A stretch of 64,000 nucleotides of DNA, from assembly GCA_016946835.1 (NCBI GenBank), contig JACVTC010000065.1:376501-440500 (forward strand), given 5' to 3'. Every line of letters starts with the position of its first letter. The first letter of the stretch is position 1. The notes below the pieces were generated by a model. It did not search any database, had not been told where the DNA came from, and worked only from the letters and a program-made list of their open reading frames with translations. The position numbers were made by a program, and so were the translations under genes. Origin of the DNA: Neocallimastix lanati (nom. inval.) (lineage: Eukaryota; Neocallimastigomycota; Neocallimastigomycetes; Neocallimastigales; Neocallimastigaceae). Shown piece after piece: positions 1,680 through 20,521 of the stretch.

Positions 1680-2236
1680 TGTAACAGATACATGGTAACT
1701 TCAAGCCTATCCAATGATAGTTCTTTGGTTACGTAACGTATCTCTAAACAGCTAGCAATTTCGGCTAATCAAATAAAATCTTTTATTACTTTCGTACATT
1801 AAATTTTATTATTTTATAAATAATTATATAGTTAAATATTTATTTAAATATATTTTATTTAGTGATTAGTAAACTAAGTTAAATTAAATTATTTACCAAT
1901 CATAATATTATTGACATGTATAAATAATAATTGAACTTGTAACTGTAACGCACTAGCGTTACTATTAACGTAAATTGTTATTATAAATATTAATATTGAT
2001 AAATAAAAATATAATTATTAAATAAAAAATATTACTCAGTGTAAGCCCAGTAACTGATAACGAATAGAGTTATAAAGTACTGCGCTATACTCTAGTGTAA
2101 TAAGAAATAATAATTATAGAATTAATTAATTTAGTGTTTATTATTAACAACTCGAATAGAGAGGTGTTAAGTTATCTTAGCCTTTAGATTTAATTATTAT
2201 TCGTTATTTTAGTTAATAATAAACTTACCTTTTACA
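1680..2236 (+). repeat. E1 5' LTR
   Basis: Starts TGTAACAG and ends CTTTTACA. It contains a perfect 7-bp hairpin (GTAACGC / GCGTTAC) and a TATA-like site near 1918. It matches 8706-9262 over its full 557 bp with about two differences. Confidence 0.95.
1895..1926 (+). promoter_or_regulatory. Possible LTR promoter (CCAAT-like and TATA-like boxes)
   Basis: ACCAAT at 1895-1900 is followed by GTATAAATA at about 1918-1926. The same pair recurs in the 3' LTR. In so AT-rich a genome a TATA match alone is weak, so this is only a candidate for the RNA polymerase II start of E1. Confidence 0.35.
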
Positions 2237-2846
2237 ATAGTAACGCTTTATAACTAATTAGCCGATAATAATTAAATAAAAATTTAAACGCTAAGTAATA
2301 ATTTAATAAGATAGAATAGTTAGTTTTTTAAAATAAAAATTAATATTTAAACAATAAATCATAGTTTACCTATTTTCTTTGTTTACTTTTTAATTGTTTA
2401 ACTTAGAAAATTTTTGATACAAAATTTACGCCACAATACGTAGCGGAAGAAGCCACGAAAATTTTAATCAAAAAAAAAAAAAAAAAAAAAAAATTTTTCG
2501 GCTTCAAAATAAAATTTTGATCAAAAATCTAAAAATTTAAATTTTTTAAAATTTCGTATATCCGAAATTTAATTTATTAATAATTTAATTATAAATCATT
2601 ATTTAATTTAAAAATTTTAAATTTTTGGTAGTACCGATATTTAATTAATAAAAATTTTGTACTTTACCAAATAAAATTCGCTTTTGCTTAATAGGTAGTC
2701 ATTTTTTATACAAATTTATATTTGTAGTGACTCGGGAAGCGAAAGAAAAATTTTTAAAATGATTATTTAAATTATTAATTTTTATACATTTAATTTTTTT
2801 TAAAAAAAAATTTATTTTTTTATTTTTTATTTTATTTATTTTATAT

Positions 2847-2883
<37 letters not shown>

Positions 2884-3002
2884 AAGTGGACGATAATATC
2901 AACTAAATAAATTTAAGTAAGTGAATAAATTATAATCTTTTAAATAAACTAAAAGTGAGTGGATATATTTATAATTACTAGATAAATTATTAAGAAAAGT
3001 AA
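2237..3002 (+). other. E1 leader with two long poly(A) runs
   Basis: Non-coding interval between the 5' LTR and the first frame of E1. It holds A runs at 2470-2493 (24 A) and 2853-2881 (29 A), the second about 120 nt before the first ATG. Directly after the LTR the sequence (ATAGTAACGCTTTATAAC) is not a usual TGG-type primer site. Self-priming or an internal tRNA fragment would be alternatives. Confidence 0.6.
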
Positions 3003-3230
3003 ATGGATAAAAAGAATAAGAGTAATAAGGCGCTTGAAAACACAAGAAAAACCACAAGGAGTGGTTCTCTGAAGAGTTCGGTGGGCAGCGTGACTGCAGA
3101 GAGTAGTCCTACGCCTGTAGAAGCACCTCCATCTCGACGCCAAAATACAGGAGACAAGAAAATGACTAGTACTCCTGAGAAACCAGCTGCTTCTAAACCT
3201 AAACCAGCTGCGGCGCCCGAGAAGAGTTAA
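3003..3230 (+). CDS. E1 small upstream frame (75 aa), basic and Pro/Ser/Lys-rich
   Basis: A short basic, low-complexity protein rich in Lys, Ser, Pro and Ala with no recognised domain. It starts at the first ATG after the poly(A) run and lies in the same reading frame as the next two E1 frames. It may be the N-terminal part of a Gag-like precursor expressed together with the downstream frames by read-through, as several retroelement families do, or a separate leader peptide. Base composition matches the rest of E1. Confidence 0.55.
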   Translation: MDKKNKSNKALENTRKTTRSGSLKSSVGSVTAESSPTPVEAPPSRRQNTGDKKMTSTPEKPAASKPKPAAAPEKS

Positions 3231-3311
3231 CCCGAGGCTAGTAAACCTGAAGCCAGTAGGCCAGGAACTAACCTAGGAGAAAGTTCAAGCAAAAATGTTA
3301 ATGCTGGAGCG

Positions 3312-3923
3312 ATGGACTTTGCTGCTTTGCTGAGTAAGCAGATGGAGGACTTTAAGAACATGATAGTAAGCACTCAGCAACAGACGGCTGCGATGATAGA
3401 ACAGATGCAAAACCAAAGTGAAATGAGATTCGCTAAAATTGAAGCCGAACTAAGCAACTTTATCCCCGCTGTGGACCAACGATTTGGAGAGGTTGAGAGG
3501 CGTGTGGAAGAAGAGGAGTCTAGTAGCCAAGCTAGTGTGCTAGAGCTTCAAAAGGTACAAGCGTATCTAAGTCAGCAACTTGCTGAAAGTAAAGATAAAG
3601 AGGCCGCTGTTAAAGCTGAAATCAAAAAGATTGAAACCTATCTGGATGCGGACCAGATAAAAGGAAAACAAATACAACAAGACCTAGAGGATAAAGGTCA
3701 AAAATTGTTCAAGATTGAGGAATTCTTGGATGCGAACCAAGAAAGGGATAAGGTACACTTGAATGAGCTCGAAGAAAAAATCGAGAAGCTAATGGCCATT
3801 AACCAGGTACAGCAACAGGAGATCGAACGACTGGGTAAGCTGGCTTTGGATGCTCAGAATAAGGAGCAGGCATCGACGAGCAAACCTTTCCCACTACACA
3901 TAGATACTAAAGAAGCAAGATAA
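3312..3923 (+). CDS. E1 coiled-coil protein (203 aa)
   Basis: Predicted long amphipathic helix: from about residue 40 onward the sequence is dominated by Glu, Lys, Gln and regularly spaced Leu/Ile. An internal duplicated motif (YLDADQ and FLDANQ) is about 30 residues apart. It opens with a Gln/Met-rich segment. Such a coiled coil upstream of the capsid could drive Gag multimerisation; this is inference, as I know no named family. It shares its frame with the flanking E1 frames and sits only about 30 nt before the Gag-Pol ATG. Confidence 0.7.
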   Translation: MDFAALLSKQMEDFKNMIVSTQQQTAAMIEQMQNQSEMRFAKIEAELSNFIPAVDQRFGEVERRVEEEESSSQASVLELQKVQAYLSQQLAESKDKEAAVKAEIKKIETYLDADQIKGKQIQQDLEDKGQKLFKIEEFLDANQERDKVHLNELEEKIEKLMAINQVQQQEIERLGKLALDAQNKEQASTSKPFPLHIDTKEAR

Positions 3924-3953
3924 GGTAGTTATCACCACTTCACGCCGCCTATA

Positions 3954-6900
3954 ATGACCAGAAGTGCGATGGAAGATGTGGTTATGACCGACGCGTACCC
4001 TGTGGAGTACGAACGAGACATCCCAATGTTCAATGGTGAAACTGAAGATGTAGAATCATTTATTGACAGGTTAAAAAGGTACTTTGGCAGACACCAGAAG
4101 TATTACCAAAGCGAGCCCACGGCTATGTTGTACTTTATTGAGGACCACTTACAAGGAACTGCTAAAAAGTGGTACCAAATGGACGAAGTATTCAAACAAC
4201 GAGATGACCCACAACCTCAAAGGTTGATGGATAGATTGCTGAAGGAATTTAAAAGCGAAAGAACGTTGGAAGAAGTTAAAACAGCAATGCTTAAACTTAG
4301 GCACGATTGGAGTAAAGCCTATGAATACCTATCAGAATTCAATAGGTTAAGTAGAATACTTCAGCTAACAGATGAAACCAAAAGACTACTGCTCGTACAA
4401 CAAGTTAGACCATCGGTTCGTGAAGCCTTTTATGATCTACCTGCAGAAAAGCAAACCTTAGAAGATTACGTGACTTGTCTAAGGAGATGCGACACATTCC
4501 CCACGGATTACAAAGACGATTACCTAGAAAGATACGAATACAACCGCGAGAGGAAGATAGCCATCATGGCCCTACTTGGAATGATGGACCCGCGAAGACC
4601 CTCCAAGGATATTGAAGCCAAAAGAAGGAGGAACAGCGATAATCGCCGAGGCGATAAAAGAGATTTCAGTAGGAAAGAGCCTACTAAACAAAACAATTAC
4701 GATAAAAACAAGAAGGATGGATATAACCATAATAGTGGTAAAGATTTCAGTACGAGACCAAGCGAAAAACAAAATTACTATAAAGACTCACGTACCAGCA
4801 GTAATAATCCAATTCCCAAGACAGCACTTCTAATGCAAGCTGGGTCTGAGTACGAAGAATTTGTGCCTGAGGCCAAGATAAGTAATCTTCGTACCAAAGA
4901 GGGGCTCCAAGATTTAAATGTGCTGTATGATACTGGATCACAGATCAACATGATCCATCCGCAGTTAGCCAAGGAGATGGGACTCAAGACAGAAGACCGT
5001 CCCTTAACGTTCACTACTGCCGCTGGTAAAGTGCTGATACCACAGGTTACGGAAAAGTTCAAGATTAAGATTAAGCTGGTCGAAGAGCGTACTGGTAAAG
5101 TCAAATGGTATGACTTTAATACAAGATGCAGGCTAGCCGAGGCTATGCCGAGAACGATTATTCTGGGATCAAGATTCATGGATAGACATTTAATCTATAG
5201 AAAGATTGACGTCCATGATCAACAGCCTAAGGTATATAAAATAGATGGCGAAAGACCAGGGCTACCAGATGTAGACTCACCAGAAGAGTGCGCAGGTGAA
5301 AGTATCTACATGGTTCAACTCCCAGAAGAAAGAGAAGAAGCTGTGCAAAAGGGGATTCAACCTACAGCGAGAATTACCAAAATTATAAATCAGGTTATTG
5401 ATAACCAGAAGTTGAAGGACACGGTGTATGAATTAACGAGCCAATATTACCGTGATAGAGGAATTGAGTATACGATGGATTACTACGATTATTTAGTGGA
5501 TTACGCTAAATGGGCAGATTGGTTCAAGGTACAGAAGACTAAAAATCTAAAGGAGAGCGAAATTAATAAAAACCCTACGGAAAGTAGTGCACAAAAAGAT
5601 AGCCAGACAAAAGATCATCTAGCCATGATCACGCAAGAGGATTCGGTGGCCGATACAATCAGAAAAGTGGGACTTGAGAAACTATTGTCAATAGGCGAAA
5701 TTATAGATAAGTATTATGGAGACTTAACGGAAGCATTCAATGAAGAAATCGCTGAGACATTACCAGAGCACAGGCCGTATGATTGCAAAATAGAACTAGA
5801 GCCTGATGTACCACTTTATAAAGGAGCTATCTACCCAACGAGTCCTAAAGAAGAGAAAGCACTTAAAGAATATATTGATGAAAATTTAGCTAAGGGGTTT
5901 ATAAGAAGGTCAGAATCTCCGGCGGGTTACCCTGTATTGTTCGTGCCGAAGAAATCAGGTGAGCTACGACTTTGCATGGATTATCGCAAATTGAACCAAC
6001 GGACTAAACGCAACGCCTATCCGATCCCAAGAATTAGTGCAGTGTTCGAAGCTATGAAAGGAGCAGTTGTGTTCTCCAAGTTCGACCTAAAATCTGCCTA
6101 TAACTTGGTACGAATTCGAGAAGGTGATGAGTACAAGACGGCCTTCAACACCAAGTTTGGACACTTTGAACATTTGGTAATGCCTTTTGGGCTAACCAAT
6201 GCACCAGCAGTGTTCCAAAGCTTCGTGAATGATGTCTTCAGCGAGGATATCGGGAAGTACTGTCAAGTCTACCTAGATGACATCGTCGTATATTCCAAAA
6301 CTTTGGAGGAACATGTAGAGCATGTTCGAACGATTTTAAAGAAGCTGATACAACATAAACTCGTAGCTAAGATGTCCAAATGTGAGCTACATAAGTTAAA
6401 GATCTCATTTTTAGGCCATGTGGTCAGCAAGGATGGTGTAGAGACTGACCCAGAAAAGATTAAGGCCGTGGCAGAATGGCCACAACCAGAAAATATCAAG
6501 CAGATGCAAAGCTTCTTAGGCTTTTGCAATTATTACAGGAATTTTATTAAGAATTTCTCTGAAATAGCCAAACCGTTATTCAAAATGACCTCAAAGAAAG
6601 AAAAATTTGAATGGAGCGAAGAAGGATTGGCCGCGTTTCACAAATTAAAGGAAATGCTTACCTCTCCGCCAGTACTAGCTTACCCTGACCACGAGAAACA
6701 GTTCTTCGTTGAATGTGATGCTAGTAATTACGCGATAGGAGGTGTGCTGTCACAGAAAGGAGACGATGGTACCCTTCATCCTATATATTATTATTCTAAG
6801 ACACTTAGTAAGGCTGAAGTAAATTATTCAATTACAGAGAAAGAACTATTAGCCATTAAGACTGCTTTTACAGAATGGCGACACTTGCTTCAAAGTGCGA

Positions 6901-8681
6901 AGCATAAGATTATTGTTTATAGTGACCACAGAAATCTGTTGTTCGCTACCAAACCACAATTACTAACTCCTAGGCAAATTAGATGGCAAGAACTATTCGC
7001 CACATACTGGTTTGAAATAGTTTACAGACCTGGGAAGAAAAATGGTAAAGCTGACGCCCTCTCAAGAGTTGAAACAGAGAAAACTGAGGGTAAAGAATTT
7101 GATAAAGATAGTCTATTAAAACCCGATCAATTGGTAGGATTTGATGACGTAGATGGAGAAGCTAGTTATCTAGCCTTAGCTACCAATTTCGTGGATGATA
7201 TCAAGCAGGCCTACCGACAGGACAAAATGGCCCAAGAGATTATGAAAGACCTAGCAGAAGATGCCAGAAATAATTATAACAAGAAACATTGGCTAGAAGT
7301 AGATGGCCTTCTGGTTAGAAAGGAAAACCCTGAACAAATTTACGTGCCCACAACGTTCAGGAAAACAATTATTCAATTAAACCATGACTCGGAGTACGCA
7401 GGACACTTAGGAATTGATAAGACTTCGGACCTAGTATCTAGGAATTTCTACTGGCCGAAGATGAGGAAGGATATATCAGGCAACGTGAAAGCTTGTAGAA
7501 CCTGCGCTACTAAGAAGGATGATCGCCATAAAGAATATGGTACTGCGGTAAGAGTTCCGGTCGCAGAATTACCCTGGCAAGAGGTACAGTTGGATTTTAT
7601 AACTGATCTGCCAGTGAAGAGTAGAGTAAGGACCAATAGTGGTTATGTTTGGGAAACGAAAAGAGCAGGTTGTATCTTAGTATGCTGCGATAAATTAACC
7701 AAGATGATACACCTGATAGGATTTAAACATGTGCCCAACGCTAACGAGACTGCTGACGCATTCCTAAAGGAGATTTACAGGCTGCATGGATTCCCTAAGG
7801 TAGTTACAACTGATAGAGGAGTTCAGTTCACCAGTCAGGTATGGAAGGAGCTACTAGAGTTCTTCGGGACCGAAGTAAACCATGCTACCACTAGTCACCA
7901 CGAGACAGTAGGCCAAGTGGAAAGGAACAATGCCTACGTAGAGACTTATTTACGGTGCTTTGTGGGAACTTACGATGATGAAAGTTGGATGGACTACTTG
8001 TTCTTAGCAGAGTTCTGCTATAACAACGCAATCCACGCTTCTACCCAACAATCTCCTTTCCTCACCTTATATAACTACCAGGTACACAACTCCCCTAAGA
8101 CAGCCGATTTAGTACATTCGTTAGGCGAAGCCAAAATGATCGATAGCTTTGCTCACAACTTGGGAAACCTAAAGCACATCCTAGAAATCGCCCAAACAAG
8201 ATACCTGGATAATATGGATAGGACCCGTACAGATAATTACCCTAGGTATAGGTTGTTAGATAAAGTATGGCTAAAGAAACCTGAAAATTATGACGCGTTG
8301 CCATTCTACAAACTTACAACAAGAAAATTCGGACCATTCAAGGTAGTTGGTGTCGACGAAGAAAAGAAGAATTATAGATTAGATATAAGTCGTTCACCTT
8401 TCCCAAATATATACCCAGTGTTCCATGTGAGTGAATTGGAACCATTCTACAACTTACCTAAAACATTAGTGCCGGCTCCTGCAGGAAACCAAAAGATAAT
8501 TCATATCCTTGGATCAAGGAAACACCAAGGACTTTATCAATACCTGGTTGCGTACCAGAATGATAAACAAGAGTGGGTCAACGCCGACGTGATCGACGAC
8601 AATCCTCACTACGCAGAATTGCTGGAGGATTACCAAGATTTTAGCTATAGCCAGTTCATCGCTAGCGTCGTCAACCATTAG
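3954..8681 (+). CDS. E1 Gag-Pol polyprotein, Ty3/gypsy chromovirus type (1575 aa)
   Basis: Encodes the particle and replication enzymes of E1. Order: capsid-like region at about residues 20-205 (FNGETEDVESFIDRL), a basic Asn-rich linker, retropepsin with DTGS at D326, reverse transcriptase with YLDD at 773-776, and RNase H with an Asp at 922 in ECDAS. Integrase follows with a His/Cys zinc-binding region at about 1144-1183 and catalytic D1214, D1287 and E1323 (a D-35-E spacing). A GPF motif lies near 1458 and a chromodomain-like tail at about 1510-1565. No CCHC zinc knuckle is seen; the basic linker may bind RNA instead. The frame is open throughout. Domain order RT-RNaseH-IN marks Ty3/gypsy, and the tail marks chromoviruses, which read histone marks to choose targets. 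Confidence 0.95.
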   Translation: MTRSAMEDVVMTDAYPVEYERDIPMFNGETEDVESFIDRLKRYFGRHQKYYQSEPTAMLYFIEDHLQGTAKKWYQMDEVFKQRDDPQPQRLMDRLLKEFKSERTLEEVKTAMLKLRHDWSKAYEYLSEFNRLSRILQLTDETKRLLLVQQVRPSVREAFYDLPAEKQTLEDYVTCLRRCDTFPTDYKDDYLERYEYNRERKIAIMALLGMMDPRRPSKDIEAKRRRNSDNRRGDKRDFSRKEPTKQNNYDKNKKDGYNHNSGKDFSTRPSEKQNYYKDSRTSSNNPIPKTALLMQAGSEYEEFVPEAKISNLRTKEGLQDLNVLYDTGSQINMIHPQLAKEMGLKTEDRPLTFTTAAGKVLIPQVTEKFKIKIKLVEERTGKVKWYDFNTRCRLAEAMPRTIILGSRFMDRHLIYRKIDVHDQQPKVYKIDGERPGLPDVDSPEECAGESIYMVQLPEEREEAVQKGIQPTARITKIINQVIDNQKLKDTVYELTSQYYRDRGIEYTMDYYDYLVDYAKWADWFKVQKTKNLKESEINKNPTESSAQKDSQTKDHLAMITQEDSVADTIRKVGLEKLLSIGEIIDKYYGDLTEAFNEEIAETLPEHRPYDCKIELEPDVPLYKGAIYPTSPKEEKALKEYIDENLAKGFIRRSESPAGYPVLFVPKKSGELRLCMDYRKLNQRTKRNAYPIPRISAVFEAMKGAVVFSKFDLKSAYNLVRIREGDEYKTAFNTKFGHFEHLVMPFGLTNAPAVFQSFVNDVFSEDIGKYCQVYLDDIVVYSKTLEEHVEHVRTILKKLIQHKLVAKMSKCELHKLKISFLGHVVSKDGVETDPEKIKAVAEWPQPENIKQMQSFLGFCNYYRNFIKNFSEIAKPLFKMTSKKEKFEWSEEGLAAFHKLKEMLTSPPVLAYPDHEKQFFVECDASNYAIGGVLSQKGDDGTLHPIYYYSKTLSKAEVNYSITEKELLAIKTAFTEWRHLLQSAKHKIIVYSDHRNLLFATKPQLLTPRQIRWQELFATYWFEIVYRPGKKNGKADALSRVETEKTEGKEFDKDSLLKPDQLVGFDDVDGEASYLALATNFVDDIKQAYRQDKMAQEIMKDLAEDARNNYNKKHWLEVDGLLVRKENPEQIYVPTTFRKTIIQLNHDSEYAGHLGIDKTSDLVSRNFYWPKMRKDISGNVKACRTCATKKDDRHKEYGTAVRVPVAELPWQEVQLDFITDLPVKSRVRTNSGYVWETKRAGCILVCCDKLTKMIHLIGFKHVPNANETADAFLKEIYRLHGFPKVVTTDRGVQFTSQVWKELLEFFGTEVNHATTSHHETVGQVERNNAYVETYLRCFVGTYDDESWMDYLFLAEFCYNNAIHASTQQSPFLTLYNYQVHNSPKTADLVHSLGEAKMIDSFAHNLGNLKHILEIAQTRYLDNMDRTRTDNYPRYRLLDKVWLKKPENYDALPFYKLTTRKFGPFKVVGVDEEKKNYRLDISRSPFPNIYPVFHVSELEPFYNLPKTLVPAPAGNQKIIHILGSRKHQGLYQYLVAYQNDKQEWVNADVIDDNPHYAELLEDYQDFSYSQFIASVVNH

Positions 8682-8705
8682 TAGCTTGCTCCTTGGGAGA
8701 GGCCT

Positions 8706-9262
8706 TGTAACAGATACATGGTAACTTCAAGCCTATCCAATGATAGTTCTTTGGTTACGTAACGTATCTCTAAACAGCTAGCAATTTCGACTAATCAAAT
8801 AAAATCTTTTATTACTTTCGTACATTAAATTTTATTATTTTATAAATAATTATATAGTTAAATATTTATTTAAATATATTTTATTTAGTGATTAGTAAAC
8901 TAAGTTAAATTAAATTATTTACCAATCATAATATTATTGACATGTATAAATAATAATTGAACTTGTAACTGTAACGCACTAGCGTTACTATTAACGTAAA
9001 TTGTTATTATAAATATTAATATTGATAAATAAAAATATAATTATTAAATAAAAAATATTACTCAGTGTAAGCCCAGTAACTGATAACGAATAGAGTTATA
9101 AAGTACTGCGCTATACTCTAGTGTAATGAGAAATAATAATTATAGAATTAATTAATTTAGTGTTTATTATTAACAACTCGAATAGAGAGGTGTTAAGTTA
9201 TCTTAGCCTTTAGATTTAATTATTATTCGTTATTTTAGTTAATAATAAACTTACCTTTTACA
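8706..9262 (+). repeat. E1 3' LTR
   Basis: Direct copy of 1680-2236, preceded by the purine tract GGGAGAGGCC at about 8695-8704. It ends TTTTACA and abuts the TGTAAAG start of LTR-A with no extra base. Confidence 0.95.
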
Positions 9263-9399
9263 TGTAAAGAATTAATTAAAAATATTTAATTATATTAATA
9301 ATTAATTCTTTCTACAATTAATAATAAAAAATATTATTAATTGAGATAAAATTAAAAAATATAATATAAAAATTGAAAACGAAAATTTAAAAACTTAGA

Positions 9400-9720
9400 G
9401 TTTATTATAAGATTATAATAAACAACACTAAAAGTAGGTTAAGAGAATTTTAGAAATTATTTTATTATAAAAATTTTTTATTTAAAAGTAATTTTAAAAT
9501 ATTTGTGTTAATTATTATAATTTCTTATAATAATAACTCTTGATTATTTTTAGAAGAATCAAGAGTCCTATTTATATTAATTTGATTTCTAATCTTGGAA
9601 AATTATCTCTATCTAGAAAAAGATTAGAAGAAAAAACTAGATAGATCTCGATTGGTGTTTAATTACATCAATCTTTAGTTAATAAGAAAACCCGAATAAG
9701 GGAGAAAACTTATTAACTAA
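9400..9720 (+). ncRNA. Structured RNA, copy A (hairpin, pseudoknot, hairpins)
   Basis: Helices seen directly: P0 9400-9410/9413-9423; P1 9536-9545/9557-9566 (ACTCTTGATT / AATCAAGAGT); P2 9587-9596/9620-9629; P3 9608-9616/9637-9645, which crosses P2 as an H-type pseudoknot. P4 is 9650-9658/9665-9673, with one G-U pair that favours the plus strand as sense. P5 is 9675-9686/9709-9720, an A-rich internal loop encloses P6 (CCC/GGG, 9691-9693/9700-9702). The loop between P2' and P3' is GAAAAAA. No known RNA family is recognised. Copies B and C keep the order with different stem sequences. Confidence 0.7.
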
Positions 9721-9989
9721 TTATATATTAATTTTATTAATATTTAATCACAAGTATAATTAAATAATTAATTCTTTTAATTATCTTAATTAAAAGTCCA
9801 AGAAATAATATAATTTAATTATTTCTTGATTAAATAAAATTATCATTTTAATACAATTTAATTTTTCTTAATTAAATAGAATTTAACATTATTTTAATAC
9901 AATAATACATTATTATAATTTAATATATTAATTATTGATAATTTAATTTAATTTTAAAACAATAACATTAATTAATAATTACTATGTGA

Positions 9990-10540
9990 TGATATACAAC
10001 TCAAAAGTTCGATGTACTTTTGTTGGGATTTATTTATTAAATTTATTAATTTATTATTTATTTATTTATTTAATTTTATATAGAAACTACATATATTTAA
10101 AAAGACTATTTAACAACTTTCTTATTCTTTTAATTACAAACTAACTTAACATAATATAACTTTTACACAACAACAACTACTATTGCTCAGCTATTCTCTT
10201 AATTCAGAGAAATGCTTTATTTTTATGTTATTTAGTTATAATTAACTATTTAATTAATTGTTCCTGTGATTAGAATAAACTATTAATAATTATTATTTAA
10301 GGAAATATTTAATAACTATATAAATATAATTATAAAATGATAAGAATATAATTAAAACATTGATTTATGCTATAAAATTTATTATTAATTAAATATATAA
10401 TTAATATATAGAAATCAAGCCACATATTGAAATTGTTGTAAAATCATTAGATTTAAATTTGATTTATGACATTAATTTATGTTTGAATAATAAAAACTAA
10501 TTTTATATTAATTAAGGTTTGAATATTTCATTTTATATCA
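9990..10540 (-). repeat. E2 3' LTR
   Basis: 551 bp, plus-strand start TGATATACAACTC and end TTTTATATCA; matches 13975-14525. Confidence 0.95.
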
Positions 10541-10562
10541 TTCGTCCCACCTTAAGATACAA

Positions 10563-12950
10563 CTATACATTAGTTGTATTAAATTTTATAATATTTTTAA
10601 GGTGTACTGGTCGTTCTAAGCATGTATGTGTATTAGGATCCATTAATTGAACTGTATTAAATTTCTTTTTAACTACTTGATAAGGTCCAACAAAATAAGG
10701 GTCTAATTTATATCTCGAAAATTTTTTTACTTTGACTAACTCGCCAATTTTTATTTCATTTTGTTTCTTTGTTGCATATTTTTCTGTAGTATTTGAAAAT
10801 TCATTTTTCATGATAATTTTTCTAGAGTTATCTCGGTCTTTAATGTATTCTTCTGCATTTAAATTTATAAAATGGTCCTCTAAAACTTCTTTCTTAAATT
10901 CACTAATTTCTTTGTTACCTTTAGTATTAATTTCATTTTGTTCTTGTTCTATTTCATTTGCACTTTCATTACTACTAGAATCTTTATGATTTATAGCATT
11001 AACTTGGTAATTATTATTGTTAATATATGTATCTATTTTATTTTCTAATATTTTATTCATATATAATATTATATTATTGAAAACTTCGTATAATTGATTT
11101 TGCAATTGACATAGATCTTTAATTTTATGTTTTTCATCCATAAAAGCATCTCTTTCATTATATTGTAATATATAGGTATTTATATTGTGCAATATATTAT
11201 TATTATACTCAATGATATTGGATTTTAATTGAATCAATTGATTTATAAATTTTTTTAATTTATTTTGATTTATTTCTTGTATATGTCTATTACAATTTAT
11301 ATTATTCTTCATATTATTAATATATTCTAATATATTATCATTTAAATTAGTTAATTTATTTCTATATATATTTTGATTATAATAAATTTTATTATCTTTG
11401 GTGTCTCCAGAATTTATTGAATTTTTGGAATATTCCATGATTTTTGGATTTTCTATATACCTTGCTTTTTCCCTCAAAATTTTTAAATTTGAAATAATTT
11501 TGAAATTTTTAATTTTATTGTTTAAATTAATTTTTGGAATTTTTGCATTAGAAATTTTTAACTTTTCTGATTTATTAAAATTTTTACTTTTCATAATGTC
11601 CTTCTTTCTTAAGTCCTTATTCTTTCCCTCCTGAGATGATACTTCCTTTTTCTTAGATATTTCTTTTATACTATTTTCTTCATTATTCTTATTAGGTCTA
11701 ATAAAATTGATACCACACGAATTCTTTTCAATAGCTTGGTTCTCAACGATAGGAGCAATGATATCAAAGTTTTCAACTGAAGTAAAACGACACAACGATC
11801 TTAACATAGGATGAATAAAAAGGTAATTATCAGCAATTGATTTAAGTCCTAATAAGAAATCAAAGTAAATATCTTTATGATCAATAACACAGAAATCTGC
11901 TGTGAAAGTATAATTATTAATTGAAACTTTTAGACGAACCACGATAGCATTCGCAATAGTACTATCCCCAAGAGCTTCATAAATTCTGCCTCTACATATA
12001 TTAACTTGTTCATAGGTACCAGGTAGACTATTAATATAAGTAGTACTCACTAAATTCAAGTTACTTCCAGAATCTATGAGTAATCTTCCTTCGGTATTGT
12101 CTACCGATGCATTTACGATTCCCAAATCGTCACTATGAAATTTTGTATTTTCTATTTTATTCTGATTATTTTCTTCTTCATTAATAATAAAAGGTTTCAT
12201 GGCGTCCAAAGAGCTAACAAATTTAATTTTTTCTAATTTTAAATTTTTTGTTAATTCGGACCTTAATTTGGGACATATATCTAGAATTTGACCAAAAGTA
12301 ATATTGCATTTGGTATTGGCTAAATCTTTAATAATTTCATACGGTTCCATATTGGTTAATTTAGCTAGATTTATGTGACGTTCTGGTTTTGTGTTACCTT
12401 CCTGTTCATTAATTTTTAATTTTGTTTCTTCAAAGTCCACTTTCTTATTAATTACAGTTCCTTGTAAATTATTAATATTTGAATTTTTGAAATTATTTCT
12501 ATTTTTGTTATTCAACTGGTCTTCACGTGATGATTTGTTAACATAATTATTACTTTCTTTATTAATTTTATTTTTATTTTTAATTTCTTCATCTTTGTTA
12601 AATTTATTATCATTAATAACATGATTATTATTATTGTTTAAATCTGGAGAAGATTTATTTATTTTAATGCTCTCATTAAAGGTAATCGTCTTTAAATTCT
12701 TTCTAACTTTAGGTTTTAGTATTTTCCTTTTAGATAAATCAACTTCTTCTTCTACTTCATCTTTTTCTTCTTCATCTTTATGGAAAATATCGCTTTTACT
12801 TGCTGTATTTGCTTTAGCTTTCCTAATTTCCGTTCCAGCATCTAAAGAAAATTCCTTTCTTTTGGCAGCATCAACAAAATATTTCTTCTTCTCAGGAACG
12901 TTATTGGAATTTAAGGGAGAACGTTCACTCCCTCTTAGTAGTTTAAACGT
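10563..12950 (-). CDS. E2 protease frame with GPY/F-like C-terminus, read by -1 frameshift
   Basis: The frame is open from 12950 to the stop at 10563 and needs no ATG of its own because it overlaps the end of gag around a slippery site. After a Lys/Glu-rich and Asn-rich linker there is a conserved segment (EPYEIIKDLANTKCNITF), then a retropepsin-like domain with DSGS at about 12066-12074. A long Asn/Lys-rich region follows, then a C-terminal GPY motif (about 10680-10688), which in full gypsy elements ends the integrase. No RT, RNase H or integrase catalytic core is present between. The protease closely resembles that of the broken gypsy body at 49.9-50.4 kb, its probable autonomous relative. 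Confidence 0.85.
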   Translation of the reverse strand, partial: TFKLLRGSERSPLNSNNVPEKKKYFVDAAKRKEFSLDAGTEIRKAKANTASKSDIFHKDEEEKDEVEEEVDLSKRKILKPKVRKNLKTITFNESIKINKSSPDLNNNNNHVINDNKFNKDEEIKNKNKINKESNNYVNKSSREDQLNNKNRNNFKNSNINNLQGTVINKKVDFEETKLKINEQEGNTKPERHINLAKLTNMEPYEIIKDLANTKCNITFGQILDICPKLRSELTKNLKLEKIKFVSSLDAMKPFIINEEENNQNKIENTKFHSDDLGIVNASVDNTEGRLLIDSGSNLNLVSTTYINSLPGTYEQVNICRGRIYEALGDSTIANAIVVRLKVSINNYTFTADFCVIDHKDIYFDFLLGLKSIADNYLFIHPMLRSLCRFTSVENFDIIAPIVENQAIEKNSCGINFIRPNKNNEENSIKEISKKKEVSSQEGKNKDLRKKDIMKSKNFNKSEKLKISNAKIPKINLNNKIKNFKIISNLKILREKARYIENPKIMEYSKNSINSGDTKDNKIYYNQNIYRNKLTNLNDNILEYINNMKNNINCNRHIQEINQNKLKKFINQLIQLKSNIIEYNNNILHNINTYILQYNERDAFMDEKHKIKDLCQLQNQLYEVFNNIILYMNKILENKIDTYINNNNYQVNAINHKDSSSNESANEIEQEQNEINTKGNKEISEFKKEVLEDHFINLNAEEYIKDRDNSRKIIMKNEFSNTTEKYATKKQNEIKIGELVKVKKFSRYKLDPYFVGPYQVVKKKFNTVQLMDPNTHTCLERPVHLKNIIKFNTTNV
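12913..12947 (-). promoter_or_regulatory. -1 ribosomal frameshift signal (TTTAAAC plus hairpin)
   Basis: On the minus strand the gag frame reads T TTA AAC at 12947-12941, a canonical X XXY YYZ slippery heptamer. It sits six bases before a stem of GAGGGAG (12934-12928) pairing with CTCCCTT (12919-12913) across an 8-base loop. The stem is strikingly GC-rich for this genome. The downstream frame is exactly -1 and the open overlap is only about 16 nt, all consistent with programmed frameshifting between Gag and the protease frame. Confidence 0.85.
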
Positions 12951-13801
12951 TCATTTGAGACATTAGCTGAACCACTTGATTCTTCATTTAGCATTCTTTG
13001 GTATTTCAAATATTCAAAATGATTAAATTTTGGACAATTGTATTTCTTATGACCTTCTTCATTACAAAAATAGCACATCTGGACTCTATATTTACCTTTA
13101 TTTCCATCATTATTCAAATTATTATTTTTGAAATTATTATCACGTGATTCATGAGTGACTGGTTTATTATTAAAAATTTTGTTATTATGTGAATTAAATT
13201 TTTGGTTGTAAGAAGAATTTCCATTAGAGATACTAGTTCTTTTTCCACATTCATTTTCAACTTCATCAATTAATTCAGCTGTAGAAAAAGCTTTTGCTAG
13301 ACTAATTCTTTTTCCCGCAAGTTTAACACCCTTCCATGCCTCTTTCTTGTTAAAAATTGACTTCAAATAATCAGAAACAGAAATGCATCTACGATCATCT
13401 TCATCGAGTTTATTATATAATTCTTTATATTCTTTATTAAATTCCTTTATATTTCCTCTGGTAGATATTGCCATATTTTTAAGTTTATCAATGATGTCTT
13501 CTGGATCCATATATAAGTCATGAAATTCAAGAAGAGCATCACGTATTTCTTCTAAAGATGGATAAACAATATTATTATCCACATCTTTAGTTACTAATGC
13601 ATTAAGACAATGGATACTTTTACCAATCACTTTAAATTTACAATTATTAAAAATTTCTTCTTCATCAGTAATTTGGTAAAGAGTGATCCAAGCCTTCATC
13701 TGGTTATACCAAGCATCAACATCCTTATTCGAATCTGAAAGGACTTGAATGCATTGGAATTGCATTAGTTTATTTTGATTTTTAATTAATTCTTCAGTCA
13801 T
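12935..13801 (-). CDS. E2 Gag with CCHC zinc knuckle (288 aa)
   Basis: Capsid and nucleocapsid precursor that packages element RNA. I chose the ATG at 13801; the frame extends to 13858 but only with a TTG. The first ~170 residues are a helical retrotransposon-gag type region (DVDAWYNQMKAWITLYQ; LEEIRDALLEFHDLY), then a basic Asn-rich stretch. One zinc knuckle CYFCNEEGHKKYNC lies at about residues 243-256. It is preceded by a 26-nt poly(A) run (minus strand, 13884-13859) in the leader. The C-terminus carries the frameshift signal. Confidence 0.9.
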   Translation of the reverse strand: MTEELIKNQNKLMQFQCIQVLSDSNKDVDAWYNQMKAWITLYQITDEEEIFNNCKFKVIGKSIHCLNALVTKDVDNNIVYPSLEEIRDALLEFHDLYMDPEDIIDKLKNMAISTRGNIKEFNKEYKELYNKLDEDDRRCISVSDYLKSIFNKKEAWKGVKLAGKRISLAKAFSTAELIDEVENECGKRTSISNGNSSYNQKFNSHNNKIFNNKPVTHESRDNNFKNNNLNNDGNKGKYRVQMCYFCNEEGHKKYNCPKFNHFEYLKYQRMLNEESSGSANVSNERLNY

Positions 13802-13957
13802 ATTTTTAACTTTAATTCTATTTTCTAATTGACTGAAAAATTCTTTAATCGAAAACAATTTTTTTTTTTTTTTTTTTTTTTTTTATTATATTTTATTTTA
13901 TTTTATTAAAAAAAATAATATTAAAATTTAATAAATATATTTTTCCTCCCACAAGAG

Positions 13958-13972
13958 CCGATATCTCCACCA
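13958..13972 (-). other. E2 primer binding site for tRNA-Ala
   Basis: Minus strand TGGTGGAGATATCGG, two bases after the 5' LTR. It is complementary to the 3' end of tRNA-Ala(UGC) including CCA. Compared with the gene at 20446 it matches 14 of 15 positions, differing at tRNA position 62. Confidence 0.9.
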
Positions 13973-13974
13973 AA

Positions 13975-14525
13975 TGATATACAACTCAAAAGTTCGATGT
14001 ACTTTTGTTGGGATTTATTTATTAAATTTATTAATTTATTATTTATTTATTTATTTAATTTTATATAAAAATTACATATAATTAAAAAGACTATTTAACA
14101 ACTTTCTTATTCTTTTAATTACAAACTAACTTAACATAATATAACTTTTACACAACAACAACTACTATTGCTCAGCTATTCTCTTAATTCAGAGAAATGC
14201 TTTATTTTTATGTTATTTAGTTATAATTAACTATTTAATTAATTGTTCCTGTGATTAGAATAAACTATTAATAATTATTATTTAAGGAAATATTTAATAA
14301 CTATATAAATATAAATATAAAATGATAAGAATATAATTAAAACATTGATTTATGCTATAAAATTTATTATTAATTAAATATATAATTAATATATAGAAAT
14401 CAAGCCACATATTGAAATTGTTGTAAAATCATTAGATTTAAATTTGATTTATGACATTAATTTATGTTTGAATAATAAAAACTAATTTTATATTAATTAA
14501 GGTTTGAATATTTCATTTTATATCA
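13975..14525 (-). repeat. E2 5' LTR
   Basis: 551-bp direct copy of 9990-10540; followed on the plus strand by the GTGA target duplication. Confidence 0.95.
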
Positions 14526-14637
14526 GTGACATAATTAATAAAATTATTCATAAAATTTTATAAAATAATAAACTTTAAATATTAATTTTTTAATAAAGAA
14601 TAATAATTATTTTGAAAAATAATTATAATTCTTTACA

Positions 14638-15666
14638 TTTCAATTGGTAGACTCGGGGTTGACACTTAGATATTTAAAATCAAGCAGGGGGGGACGGGTA
14701 TTACCCTGCTTTGATTTTAAATAAAAAAAAAATAATTCTTTTATTAAAAGTTATTTATTTTTTTTTTTTTATTAATATAAAATTTTATTATTTAAAGTAC
14801 ACATATTTAATTTTTAAGAAATTGTTACAATATTTATATTTTTTTATAAATTTAAAGTATAATTAATTGTTTATAATTTAAGTAATTTTATAGAATTATT
14901 GAATTAATTTTATATCAATAATTCATTTTTGTTTTAATTTTTATAAATATAATAATATAATATTCAAATATAATTTAATTAAAAATAATTATAAAATAAA
15001 TATATAGAAAATAGTTTTTACTATTTTCCGTGATATTTTTAAGTTAAATAAATTGTTTTTAAAGATTAATATAATAAATTTAATAATCTTTAATTATTTT
15101 AAATAATACTTGTAATTATTTTCAAAATAAAATAAAATTTTTATAATATTTAATTAATAAATTTGATAATATTTAAATAATAATTTTTATAATAAGTAAA
15201 AATTTTTAATAATAATTTTTAATAATAAATTTAATTAATAATCTTAATAATTTTATAATAATATTTAATAGTTATAATATATAAATTTTTATAATATTTA
15301 ATAATTTTAATAATTTTATAATATTAATAATTTATAATAATTTTTAGAATAATATTTAATTAATAATTTTAATAATTTTATAATAATTTTTATAATAATA
15401 TTTAATTAATAGTTTTAATAGTTTAGTATCTTAAAAGTATAATTTTAATATTTACAATTGTATTTTAATATACATATATTTAATAATATAACAATAAAAT
15501 AATTAATTAAAATTTATTTACATTATTTACAAGTTAAAATTAATTTATATCAAAATAAATTAAATTTTATTATTAAGTTTAGGTTATCAAGAATATAGGA
15601 AAGTACAATTTAGTAAAGAATTATTAATAATAAAATAAAGGTTATTAATTCATTCTTTACCACAAT
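14638..15666. other. Interior downstream of LTR-A, non-coding
   Basis: After the possible primer site at 14645-14658 comes a strong hairpin at 14672-14721, then about 900 bp of A/T sequence. That part has degenerate tandem TAATAATTTTATAATAA tracts (about 15150-15420), an 8-bp hairpin GAAAATAG/CTATTTTC near 15006-15027, and an imperfect palindrome at about 15616-15663. There are no reading frames. If LTR-A belongs to an element, this is its interior and it codes nothing. Confidence 0.5.
14672..14721. repeat. GC-capped long inverted repeat (hairpin)
   Basis: TTTAAAATCAAGCAGGG (from 14672) pairs with CCCTGCTTTGATTTTAAA (to 14721) with one bulged base. The loop is short and G-rich (GGGGACGGGTATTA). 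It is one of the few GC-rich spots outside coding DNA, just after the possible primer site of LTR-A. It could be an RNA packaging/dimer signal or a Rho-independent-like fold; function unknown. Confidence 0.7.
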
Positions 15667-16172
15667 TGATACGATATTTTTATTAAACATCAATATCAAT
15701 ATTTATTTTATTTTATTTGGACGATAACAGTAGGGAATAATTGACAAAATAATATATTCTAATATTATATAGAATAATACACACAATAATAATATTCACA
15801 CTTTAATATTTAGTTTATTTATTTTATTTATTTATTATCATTCATCAATAAAAATACATCATCAATATAAATAGTTGTTAATTAGTTAAAATATAATTAA
15901 ATCATTCAATAAAATATAATTAATTACTAAAATCTCTCATATTATTAATGTAAACTAAATATAAAACTACACTAAACTATACTAATAAACATGTTTATAG
16001 GTTAAATTATTAATAAACTAAATTAATATTAATTAAAGAACCATTTCTTAAACTATTATTATTTACTAACTATATATAATATTACTAAATTATTATTAAC
16101 CAATAAGATTTTATCAAATAATTCCTAACCTAAGTTTCACTAAATTATGGTATTTATGGTGGTACCGTATCA
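15667..16172 (-). repeat. E3 3' LTR
   Basis: 506 bp; matches 18212-18717 with one difference seen. Confidence 0.95.
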
Positions 16173-16221
16173 AAATGCCCCCACTGAAATTAGACTTCGT
16201 CCCTTGAAGTCACCAAAATTT

Positions 16222-16277
16222 AGTTACTTTCATAAATTTTTTTTTTTTTTTTTTTTTAATAAATTTTTTTTTATAAT

Positions 16278-16311
<34 letters not shown>
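16222..16311 (-). repeat. Poly(A) tracts (minus strand) in E3 3' region
   Basis: Three near-pure T runs on the plus strand between the purine tract and the gag end. They lie in the 3' untranslated part of E3. Confidence 0.7.
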
Positions 16312-16320
<9 letters not shown>

Positions 16321-16434
16321 TTTATATAAATATTTTTAAACTATATATAATAAAAATAAATATATTTCAAAATTTTAAATTTTAATTTTGAAATTTGAGA
16401 TTTTGAAATTTCAAATTATTTAATTAATTATTAT

Positions 16435-17853
16435 TTATTTTTTTTTTTTTTTTTTTGTATTATTTTCCATTCCAAAATCCTTTTTCTTTAAATCTTCCAC
16501 GTTACATATAAAATTATTATTATTGTTATTAGCATTATTATTATTATTGTTATTAAATACTAAATTATTATATCCCTTCTCAAAATTTATATTTCTATCA
16601 TCATTTTTATTTTCATTAGAAGCGTAAGTCACATTTTTCTCAACTCCAGGTTTATTAATATTATAACTGAAATTACTAATTCGGTTTTCTGAATTCTTTT
16701 CACAATTAATTATATTATTTTTGTTACAATTATTATTATTATTATTGTTATTATTGTAATTATTAGTTCCATAATAAACAAAGTTATTGTTTCTATTATT
16801 ACTTCTATAAGAATTATAACTGTTATTTCTCTCATTATGATTATTATTATAATTATTTTCATCTCTACAATTATTATTATTACTATCACTGTTATTATTA
16901 GTATTTATTCCATAATTATAATTATTATTATTACCAAGATTATTATACCAATTTCTATTTTTGATATTATTATTTTTAGTCCAATAAAAGTTTTTATTGG
17001 TGTCATAATTATTAAATTCATACCTTTGAATGTTTAACTTATTATTTTGATAATTATTATTATTATTACTCATATAATTATTTAAATTATTCTGTTTATT
17101 TATATTAATATCGTTTTGTTTATTATTCCAATTACCAACATTACCCGAATAGTTTCCATTATTATTATAATAATAATAATTATTACTATTTTTACCAAAT
17201 AATTTATTATAATTATTTTTATTATATAAAAATATTTTTTTCTTATTAAAATTTTCCCTATAATTACTTTTTTTATTCTTTTCTATTATTCCTTTTTCTT
17301 CCATTATTGATAATTCTTTAAATGAATATTTACAATTGAATGCCTTGTGGCCTATTTCATAACATCTAAAGCACATTAATTTATTATTTTTCTTATTAAT
17401 ATTATTATTATGATAATTTATATAATTATTTTTATAATTTTGTTTATAATTATTAAAATCTATTTTGAAATTTAATTTCTCTTCAATTCTACTGGCCTTT
17501 TCCGCGATTTTAATTGCTTCTTCAATATTTTCACATTCTTGCTCTAATACTTTTAAACATGGATATATTCTTGGTTTAATTGAGTTTATATAATCTTCTA
17601 CTGTAATTAATTTTCTCATTTCTTTATCAATATTTTTATACTTTCTAATATAATTAATATTAAATATTGGTATTGGTTCATTTGTTTTTATTTTTGATTC
17701 CTTTAATTCCCAAATTTTATCGTTCTGAGTGATTCCTAAATATTTCTCAAATTCTTCTTTAATAATTTGAGTTGATGGATAAGTTTTATTTTCTCCATTT
17801 TCTTCTATACTTTTTAAAACTTCTTTAAGAGCATAATCCACACATTCTTGCAT
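16435..17853 (-). CDS. E3 Gag, zinc knuckle and Asn-rich tail (472 aa)
   Basis: Nucleic-acid-binding structural protein of E3. Residues about 1-130 are a helical gag-type region (TVEDYINSIKPRIYPCLKVL; EEAIKIAEKASRIEEKL). A CCHC knuckle CFRCYEIGHKAFNC lies at 161-174. From about 180 on the protein is almost entirely Asn, Tyr and Lys, ending in a Lys run. The Asn-rich part is long, low-complexity and prion-like, which may be host base bias or may help particle condensation. Gag-like coding extends upstream toward 17.99 kb. No enzyme domain follows. Confidence 0.85.
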   Translation of the reverse strand: MQECVDYALKEVLKSIEENGENKTYPSTQIIKEEFEKYLGITQNDKIWELKESKIKTNEPIPIFNINYIRKYKNIDKEMRKLITVEDYINSIKPRIYPCLKVLEQECENIEEAIKIAEKASRIEEKLNFKIDFNNYKQNYKNNYINYHNNNINKKNNKLMCFRCYEIGHKAFNCKYSFKELSIMEEKGIIEKNKKSNYRENFNKKKIFLYNKNNYNKLFGKNSNNYYYYNNNGNYSGNVGNWNNKQNDININKQNNLNNYMSNNNNNYQNNKLNIQRYEFNNYDTNKNFYWTKNNNIKNRNWYNNLGNNNNYNYGINTNNNSDSNNNNCRDENNYNNNHNERNNSYNSYRSNNRNNNFVYYGTNNYNNNNNNNNNCNKNNIINCEKNSENRISNFSYNINKPGVEKNVTYASNENKNDDRNINFEKGYNNLVFNNNNNNNANNNNNNFICNVEDLKKKDFGMENNTKKKKKK

Positions 17854-18188
17854 AAATATAAGTCTTCATTTAGGATTCTGGATATCCCATAGATCCATAA
17901 CTTCTTCGAAATCATGTATCCATAAGTCAACATCTTTACCATAATTTTTCAATAAAGGTAAATTTCTTAACAACTTATAGATATCCATTTTTATTTTTTA
18001 TTTATATTATATACTTTTTTTTTTTTTTTTTTTTTTTTTTTGTTTACTATTATTAATTATACAATATTTTTATTTTTATTATTATTATTACTTTTTTTTA
18101 TATATATATTAAACTTATTTTATTATTTATTATTATGTATTATTATTATTCTATAAATATTATTTTCATATTATCTTGTTACTGTCAC

Positions 18189-18205
18189 GCCCGGATTCTC
18201 CACCA
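18189..18205 (-). other. E3 primer binding site (tRNA-Ala-like, second isoacceptor)
   Basis: Minus strand TGGTGGAGAATCCGGGC, six bases after the 5' LTR. The implied tRNA ends GCCCGGATTCTCCA-CCA. With a GGGGAAT acceptor it would have the G3-U70 pair of tRNA-Ala, so a second tRNA-Ala is the best guess. That gene is not in this window. Confidence 0.7.
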
Positions 18206-18211
18206 AAATTA

Positions 18212-18717
18212 TGATACGATATTTTTATTAAACATCAATATCAATATTTATTTTATTTTATTTGGACGATAACAGTAGGGAATAATTGACAAAATAATAT
18301 ATTCTAATATTATATAGAATAATACACACAATAATAATATTCACACTTTAATATTTAATTTATTTATTTTATTTATTTATTATCATTCATCAATAAAAAT
18401 ACATCATCAATATAAATAGTTGTTAATTAGTTAAAATATAATTAAATCATTCAATAAAATATAATTAATTACTAAAATCTCTCATATTATTAATGTAAAC
18501 TAAATATAAAACTACACTAAACTATACTAATAAACATGTTTATAGGTTAAATTATTAATAAACTAAATTAATATTAATTAAAGAACCATTTCTTAAACTA
18601 TTATTATTTACTAACTATATATAATATTACTAAATTATTATTAACCAATAAGATTTTATCAAATAATTCCTAACCTAAGTTTCACTAAATTATGGTATTT
18701 ATGGTGGTACCGTATCA
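18212..18717 (-). repeat. E3 5' LTR
   Basis: 506-bp direct copy of 15667-16172; followed by the CAAT target duplication. Confidence 0.95.
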
Positions 18718-18721
18718 CAAT

Positions 18722-19686
18722 TGTAAGAATCTATAATTATTTTTAAATAAAATAATTATATTTTCTTAGTTAAGTTATAATTATAACTTTATTTAATTAT
18801 ATAATATTTATTCATTTAAATATTATTAATAATTTATTAAACTCAATATTAAATAATCATTAATTTAATACAACAAATTTATTTAATTAATTATTATTTA
18901 TACATTTATAAATAATTATAGTTTATTTAATTATATATTTAATTATTAAATTTATTAGTCTTAGTTTATTTATTTAATTAAATTGTAAACAAATATATTA
19001 TGTATTCTAATATGTACTTAATAATGTATTCTGTATTTTGTTTATTAATATCATTATTATGTTATTTTCCTTATTTGTAAATTTATGATTTTATGGTCGA
19101 AATATCTTTTATTATTTTATTCTTTTATTTTCGATCAATTAAATTAGATTAGCTAATCGGTCAATTAGGGTTTTTCCCAATCACTTTTTAAAAGTAATTG
19201 GTTTTACCTAATTGATACGATGATCGATATGGATAGAATATCGATCAAAAATCTTATCTAGGTTTTTCTCTCTAATCTTTTCCTAGATAAGAGATTTGTT
19301 AAGATTAGAAAACATTTTTTAATTTAACCTTATTTTTCAAAAAAGTATAAATAAAGCTCTTGAATTCTCTTTGAGAAATAAGAGTTATTATTATAACAAT
19401 TATAATATAGTAATAACATTAATAAATTTTTTATATTTCTATTTTAATAAAGTAAGTTTTAATAAAAAACAAATTTAAAAAAAAAAAAAAAATAAAATAA
19501 TCTTTTCTCTTTGACTATTTTGTGTTATTAGTTTATTATAATTAGTTATAATAAACTCTCTCTTATAGAAGATAAGTATATTTATCTTTTTTTTGTTTTC
19601 TCAATTTAATAATAATTATTATTTAGTTATTATTAAGTTGTAGTTAATAATTTAATTCTAATTAATTTTATAATTAAATTATTACA
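18722..19686 (-). mobile_element. LTR-C: reversed LTR of the LTR-A family
   Basis: On the minus strand it runs from TGTAATAATTTAATT to GATTCTTACA. It shares with LTR-A the early CTACAAYTTAATAATAA segment, the GTTTATTATAA hairpin and the pseudoknot block. Its outer flanks (ACAAT left, ATAAT right once LTR-B is set aside) could be a target duplication with one change. Before LTR-B arrived its right end lay about 14 bp from the tRNA-Ala gene. Confidence 0.65.
19161..19556 (-). ncRNA. Structured RNA, copy C (minus strand)
   Basis: Same helix order as copy A read on the minus strand. P0 19531-19541/19546-19556 (identical stem, different loop); P1 19357-19369/19373-19384 with a small internal loop; P2 19271-19279/19301-19309; P3 19252-19262/19282-19292, crossing P2. 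P4 is 19222-19230/19238-19246 (GATCGATAT / ATATCGATC) and P5 is 19161-19169/19207-19215. P6 inside it is 19177-19187/19191-19201, where one pair is G-U on the minus strand but a C-A mismatch on the plus, fixing the sense strand. The loop after P2' is GAGAAAAA. Confidence 0.7.
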
Positions 19687-19688
19687 AT

Positions 19689-20428
19689 TGTAATAACACA
19701 AAATTAATACTTAACTTTTATTAAAATAACAATAATTGATAAAAAATATTTCGAGTTTATTAAGAAATTTTATTATATATTATTTTCTAAATAATAACTC
19801 TTGATTTTTATTTTATAGAAAAAATCAAGGTTATTTATAATTTTTTTTTGTTCATAATCTTAAAAGTTATTCTTTCAGGAAAAAGATTATGAGAAAAAAC
19901 CTGAAAGATAAAATAAATTAATTATTTATTATTTAATATAATTTAATATTATTTAATATTATTTAATATTATTTAATATTATTTAATATTATTTAATATT
20001 GGCAATTAACCAATATTTTATGAAATTATTTATTATGATGTTTTAAGTTTATAATTATTAACTAATTTTATATTAATTTAATATTAATTATATTAATATT
20101 AAATGTTTTAATATAATTAATCACGTATTATTGTTAATGATAAATCAAATGATTAATTATTTATATTAAATAGAAATTGGTTATTAATTAAAGATATTGT
20201 TTATATTTCATAATAATTAATTATTAATTAGTTAAAAAATTAATTTTATCAATTAATAATTATTTTTATTTTATTATTTAATAACAATTATTAAAATTAT
20301 AGTATATTAAATAATATTAAGTGTTATTTTATTGAAAAATTATTTAAATCTTAATTAATAATAAAAATAAATATAATATTTATATTATATTTGGTTAAGT
20401 GTGACTAATTAATTAGTCAACACTTACA
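19689..20428 (+). mobile_element. LTR-B: solo LTR of the LTR-A family next to tRNA-Ala
   Basis: 740 bp from TGTAATAACAC to CAACACTTACA, flanked by a perfect 5-bp target duplication ACAAT (19684-19688 and 20429-20433). The right duplication ends 12 bp before the tRNA gene, so integration fell 12-17 bp upstream of it. That is the position used by Ty3-like integrases guided by polymerase III factors. It contains the same pseudoknot block as LTR-A and -C, and near its end an inverted repeat AGTGTGACTAAT/ATTAGTCAACACT. Confidence 0.8.
19800..20017 (+). ncRNA. Structured RNA, copy B
   Basis: P1 19800-19809/19820-19829 (CTTGATTTTT / AAAAATCAAG). P2 19853-19861/19883-19891 and P3 19871-19879/19900-19908 form the crossing pseudoknot; loops AAA and AGAAAAAA match copy A. 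P4 is short, 19912-19918/19924-19930. A later hairpin AATATTGG/CCAATATT (19995-20002/20010-20017) may stand for P5/P6. A 10-bp tandem ATTTAATATT array (about 19932-20000) has expanded between them. Confidence 0.65.
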
Positions 20429-20445
20429 ACAATAATCTATGTACT

Positions 20446-20517: not shown

Positions 20518-20521
20518 GAAA

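Follow-up and report, generated by a model that had tools for sequence, protein, structure and literature searches.

The question raised by positions 9400 to 9720 of the stretch of Neocallimastix lanati DNA analysed here (64,000 nucleotides, hereafter the window) is what a set of hairpins and crossing inverted repeats, recurring in the same order in several long terminal repeats (LTRs), may be for. A first-pass annotation had read them as a large pseudoknotted RNA of one element family, carried by three LTRs designated A, B and C and composed of a hairpin P1, crossing helices P2 and P3, a hairpin P4 and, in A and C, a capped stem P5/P6. In plus-strand coordinates P1 and P2/P3 are found where it had placed them in A, B and C, as are P4 and P5/P6 in A and C. 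The shared order of helices holds for P1 and P2/P3, but what had been called P4 in B is an ordinary hairpin, some 90 nt past the pseudoknot.

Three solo LTRs and the sense of their elements

The window is part of a 199-Mb genome and is AT-rich, with a GC content of 10–41% per 2 kb. Each of A, B and C is a solo LTR, and the three elements from which they derive are related. The larger part of the Ty3/gypsy LTR A lies at 9263–9988 with its element sense on the minus strand, where gag-pol is also read; the remainder, the start of U3, is found at 14526–14638 (minus), severed by a nested element (9989–14525) which splits the LTR in two. This remainder is matched at 99% by positions 1957–2069 of locus L007, the unit measures about 835 bp in intact copies, and the 30 genome loci retrieved for it match LTR A in whole or in part. 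LTR B (about 741 bp, 19689–20428, minus) ends 16 bp short of a tRNA-Ala gene at 20445–20518. LTR C (about 972 bp, 18722–19686) has its element sense on the plus strand, as taken from the gag-pol strand. Only two bases separate C from B in this stack on the upstream side of the tRNA-Ala gene (18722–20518 altogether), a tRNA-side landing site used at least two times. Copies in the genome were 100% identical throughout for A (best 40 of 630 candidates), 98–100% for B (best 40 of 247) and 99–100% for C (best 40 of 1,650), figures which refer to the best 40 each and say nothing on older copies.

Region A does not belong to the Ty3/gypsy element on its left (1680–9262), the LTRs of which are at 1680–2236 and 8706–9262. 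They are 99.6% identical, the element has an open pol frame of 1,585 amino acids, and a protein search with part of this pol yielded many retroelements (best 120 of 5,201 matches). Its 5' LTR is followed by CTTTATAACT, a 10-nt complement of which seems, by eye, to lie in its own LTR near 9094–9104, and this element may prime itself too. The window further contains tandem repeats with a period of 54 bp from about 114 to before 1680, a short LTR element at 15652–18721 (LTRs 15667–16172 and 18212–18717, with an Asn-rich frame on the minus strand), and a U3 snoRNA gene at 22247–22461 (Rfam RF00012, 83.5 bits).

The distance between paired LTRs is about 5.0 kb for A, 4.9 kb for B and 5.8 kb for C, with gag at one internal end and integrase at the other. 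The integrase fragment of A matches Integrase_H2C2, rve and a Tf2-1-like SH3 domain, those of B and C are 69% and 77% identical to it, and the elements are Ty3/gypsy. The 3' LTR is preceded by a purine-rich tract, and after the 5' LTR stands the primer binding site (PBS) ATAATAACTCTT, the 12-nt complement of which, AAGAGTTATTAT, is found within each of the LTRs A, B and C at P1. With this stretch taken as the 5' segment of the RNA, the PBS is complementary to that segment in all three elements, which points to Tf1-like self-priming from a putative primer with a predicted RNA start. In A a TATA-like box TATAAATA (9569–9576, minus) is located 35 nt upstream of the putative self-primer and RNA 5' end (9530–9541, minus), which is overlapped by the sense 3' arm of hairpin P1 (9537–9565, minus). 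The box of B is at 19832–19839 and its P1 (19800–19829) and self-primer (19791–19802) together occupy 19791–19829, all on minus; the box and self-primer of C are at 19346–19353 and 19380–19391 and its P1 at 19357–19384, all on plus. Of 20 distinct strings, 16 have the box 34–37 nt ahead of the primer; the remaining four have spacings of 25, 33, 39, and 45 nt, those of 25 and 33 lying outside this LTR context. Gag-pol, read for these three elements, as well as PBS, TATA-like box and primer thus all run opposite to the strand chosen in the first-pass annotation. As the structured region lies upstream of TATA-like box and self-primer in the gag-pol sense, it is located in U3, a part of the LTR which the genomic RNA contains solely at its 3' end.

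In Tf1 and Tj1 the PBS likewise has its complement within the 5' LTR (PMC4600332), and the Tf2-1-like SH3 domain in the integrase of A is a further likeness. A survey of tRNA genes covered 90 loci, 12 without a recognised LTR end and 78 with a U3-side end; 20 of these ends face the interior of an element and one (L010) runs into an inverted copy, which leaves 57 usable loci. Eleven of the 57 have a tRNA gene within 400 bp of the LTR end, in all 11 cases at 15–18 bp and pointing away, and since two pairs among them share a flank the independent insertions number at most nine. The other 46 have no tRNA gene within 400 bp, and many LTR ends adjoin further LTRs. Insertion at a fixed distance upstream of tRNA genes is what characterises tRNA-targeted Ty3-like elements, a pattern which these 11 loci follow; Tj1 integrates just upstream of tRNA genes at 5–11 bp (PMC4600332), a smaller gap than the 15–18 bp observed here.

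A pseudoknot with changing stems and a constant U-rich loop

In the element sense the crossing helices form an H-type pseudoknot with a U-rich loop L1. It is found in A at 9587–9645 (minus; S1 = 9637–9645/9608–9616, S2 = 9620–9629/9587–9596), in B at 19852–19908 (minus; P2 19852–19861/19883–19892, P3 19871–19879/19900–19908) and in C at 19252–19309 (plus; P2 19301–19309/19271–19279, P3 19282–19292/19252–19262), P3 being the sense stem S1 and P2 the sense stem S2 when followed in the coordinates of A. The sense order is S1, L1 (UUUUUC and 2–3 nt), S2, L2 (UU or UUU), S1', L3 and S2', with a variable L3 of 7–11 nt and with S2 formed by UUCUAAUCUU/AAGAUUAGAA, which shows few changes among the forms. 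Altogether 27 distinct anchored forms were found among the loci. For D to N the term family denotes such a distinct form of the pseudoknot region, the comparison of whole LTRs having covered A, B and C. Fourteen rows were picked by hand from the 27 forms, close variants being omitted, and contain 13 distinct S1 arms, so that the assignment of A, B and C to a single element family was rejected.

Over the 13 distinct forms S1 pairs in 119 of 143 cells, where re-pairing of the arms gives a mean of 92.9 (sd 5.4) and reaches the observed value in 0 of 20,000 trials, and L1 keeps its C and four T columns unchanged in all 14 rows, in agreement with the earlier remark that stems change and still pair while loops barely change. 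A 12-row alignment has 90.0% of its cells paired, compared to 82.0% when shuffled and 33–54% when the arms are slid by 1–3 columns, with two-sided change in 11 of 20 pairs (4.8 shuffled) and a score of 0.261 (0.112 shuffled); the measure "further pair types" gave no excess over shuffles in this alignment (303/500). Forms J and K are absent from the 12-row count because MAFFT shifted their S1 arm, and are present in the anchored S1 count. L092, a decayed copy, was kept in the counts, its S1 being off by one in those of S1 and wobble pairs. The expected covariation across LTR copies is thus present in S1, and in the lower stem of P5/P6 described below; it is nearly missing from S2 (P2), with two-sided change in two of nine pairs because S2 barely varies, P3, P4, and P5/P6 being the most variable.

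Comparison to shuffled sequence of the same kind, which the first-pass annotation had proposed, came out in favour of the pairing. Fifteen of 18 LTR segments, close variants of one another included, can form a pseudoknot of at least 18 perfect pairs; the value is 15 for L092 and 0 for J and K, in the latter presumably because the count took in Watson-Crick pairs alone and their S2 contains a G-U. None of 1,080 dinucleotide shuffles reached 18 pairs and two reached 16. Genome-wide, an IUPAC pattern of the pseudoknot gave 1,239 matches versus 22 for the reversed pattern, and a second one 73 versus 0 for its control, the J/K form making up 32 of 37 strings among the matches listed. A and C were also folded with an energy model without pseudoknots, with z-scores of −4.6 on plus and −4.0 on minus for A and of −5.5 on minus and −6.7 on plus for C. 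Compensated change in the stems beside constant A/T-rich loops, which extends to LTR forms beyond the original three, is best explained by selection on a folded strand, as had been proposed.

The pseudoknot of telomerase RNA is also of the H-type with a U-rich L1, and the crossing stems with a U-rich L1 found here have the same build. In contrast to it, L2 measures 2–3 nt, the element is not a telomerase, and the triples are predicted ones. A triplex in the pseudoknot is plausible, but by reading of the sequence UUUUU of L1 against AAGA of S2 would allow only about three canonical U.A-U triples. The earlier proposal of a triplex pseudoknot can be retained in this form, in which the A-rich third loop of the opposite strand is replaced by the U-rich L1. 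The MALAT1 triple helix likewise brings a U-rich loop against an A-rich stretch within one RNA (PMC11411715), although the A-rich strand is here one arm of a long Watson-Crick stem.

An ENE-like stem upstream of the pseudoknot

In A, P5/P6 (9677–9718, minus) consists of a lower stem, a U-rich internal loop, and an apical stem of 3 bp (CCC/GGG), followed by hairpin P4 (9650–9673, minus) with one A-C in sense. In C the corresponding stem is found at 19160–19216 and P4 at 19222–19246, both on plus. The order of the module in sense is ENE-like stem, P4 and pseudoknot, and the stem lies within U3, ahead of both the TATA-like box and R. Its layout of lower stem, U tract, apical stem closed by C-G, second U tract, and lower-stem partner matches the published ENE architecture, so that P5/P6, for which no known family had been recognised, does have a counterpart. 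The stem is common to A and C as had been noted, and no equivalent was found in B by either a strict ENE scan or a looser regular expression.

The strict scan matched nine of the 18 segments when read in sense and not one of them when read on the opposite strand; it also matched 10 of 3,600 shuffles, six of these at a score of at least 11. Among the nine segments which fail it is A, because its apical stem is too short, and the stem of C is the sole strict match in the 64-kb window on either strand. The looser expression matched 14 of 18 segments, not matching J (the segment of which begins at the locus edge), B, L092, and L104, and the fit is poor in L102. Counted over 11 distinct forms, 91 of the 99 lower-stem cells are paired against a re-pairing mean of 66.7, with 0 of 20,000 re-pairings as high; the anchor used was the best-pairing alternative of the expression, which gives this count a mild bias in favour of structure. 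At the sequence level G-C pairs stand beside the U tracts of the internal loop: the apical stem is closed by C-G in the 14 matches with the exception of the irregular L102, and the lower stem by G-C in most forms, by A-U in E, with an irregular inner pair in G. The pattern GTTTTTCC...GGTTTTA was matched 577 times in the genome and its control not once; the matches listed include several kinds of apical stem. This core, present in several forms, resembles KSHV PAN. The form of L106 and L107 has several extra U tracts upstream of the pseudoknot. In L106 the ENE-like stem, with tracts of 7 and 5 U, could belong to a double ENE.

About 200 ENE motifs are reported from transposons, most of them in plants and fungi and with a strong tie to LTR retrotransposons (as cited in PMC12501189). 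In the Arabidopsis LTR retrotransposon Evade the ENE binds poly(A) in a triple helix, which favours the stability of the RNA and the mobility of the element (PMC12501189). The stems described here share with it the U-rich internal loop, the adjacent G-C pairs and their occurrence in LTR retrotransposon RNA. They differ in lying inside U3 of the LTR, where that of Evade is in a spacer before the LTR (PMC12501189), and in being followed by a U-rich pseudoknot.

Possible roles of the module

The module is probably an RNA-protecting domain at the 3' end of the genomic RNA, a reading in which triplexes and function are deduced from form and context. A role in protecting the tail, as for the Evade ENE, is suggested by position and form. 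Transcription would run through the U3 stretch upstream of the tail, with a putative 5' end of the RNA at the primer. By holding the poly(A) tail in a triple helix of U.A-U type the ENE would block deadenylation, and the pseudoknot would add a second, internal triplex between the U tract of L1 and the A-rich 3' strand of S2 to cap the domain, L1 lying in the major groove of S2 and forming U.A-U triples with its AAGA strand. Together they would keep the RNA alive until packaging and reverse transcription. P1 joins the start of R to a stretch of U3 which the RNA carries at its 3' end alone; P1 could therefore mask the primer copy located there and leave the 5' copy to anneal to the PBS. The fuller proposal of a composite triple-helix domain in U3 of self-priming, tRNA-associated retrotransposons, made of a poly(A)-binding ENE and a pseudoknot of the telomerase/MALAT1 type which locks the tail complex, with P1 setting the 3' primer copy apart from the 5' copy, is put forward tentatively and may well not hold in all its parts.

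An alternative is that the functional RNA runs against the sense of the element: an antisense transcript of the LTR whose A-rich third loop would make a minor-groove triplex, and which would perhaps regulate the element. Single G-U pairs had been cited for that strand, and some do fit it alone, with A-C in sense (P4 of A and L104, the apical stems of C and D, S1 of L094), but others fit sense alone (S2 of J/K, S1 of K, the apical stems of E and L106, the lower stems of G and L101/L103, P4 of L109), and L092, L102 and L105 have mixed cells; the strand is not decided by wobble pairs. By the z-scores given above the fold of A is slightly better on plus and that of C better in sense, and the one-sided result of the strict ENE scan together with the sense orientation of TATA-like box and self-primer renders the antisense reading distinctly unlikely. 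About as weak a candidate, if anything a little weaker, is a role of the inverted repeats as DNA immediately before the TATA-like box, where they might serve as promoter sites or form cruciforms. The pseudoknot is 10, 12 and 36 bases upstream of this box in A, B and C, and S2 is nearly constant as a binding site would be, but S1 and the ENE stems swap letters while keeping pairing and loops, where a protein site would keep the stem letters, and crossing helices cannot make one cruciform.

Less improbable than either, though still unlikely, is that the sense RNA serves packaging, strand transfer or self-priming, for instance by holding the 3' R copy for minus-strand transfer. The module lies close beside self-primer and P1, and as family B keeps the pseudoknot where no ENE was found, the pseudoknot may have a job of its own; the ENE architecture with its G-C-flanked U tracts is left unexplained by such a role. 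The self-cleavage considered earlier would call for a new ribozyme, which is hardly credible. A two-stem pseudoknot with fixed loops would suit one, but no Rfam ribozyme matched at gathering score, lax thresholds gave nothing in A and just CoTC in B and C (22 bits, gathering 58), and in our judgement the conserved letters, U tracts and S2, do not look like a catalytic core. Other known ribozymes were rejected by the same threshold, and an HDV-like fold by inspection, there being no P3/P4 hairpins inside the loops. Viral contigs yielded no relative: a pattern search gave no matches, and of 32 pattern matches from an integrase alignment none was confirmed.

ENEs in transposons are already reported; for their pairing with a U-rich pseudoknot inside U3 no report was found among the best-matching open-licence papers. 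The account of Tf1/Tj1 mentions neither ENE nor pseudoknot in the part of PMC4600332 consulted. If the reading is true, tail-protecting triple helices would be extended to another retrotransposon lineage, paired with a pseudoknot of many natural variants, and RNA stability would be linked with self-primed reverse transcription. More than 1,000 pattern matches in one genome and 13 forms of S1 offer natural compensatory mutants for tests of RNA protection by triplexes.
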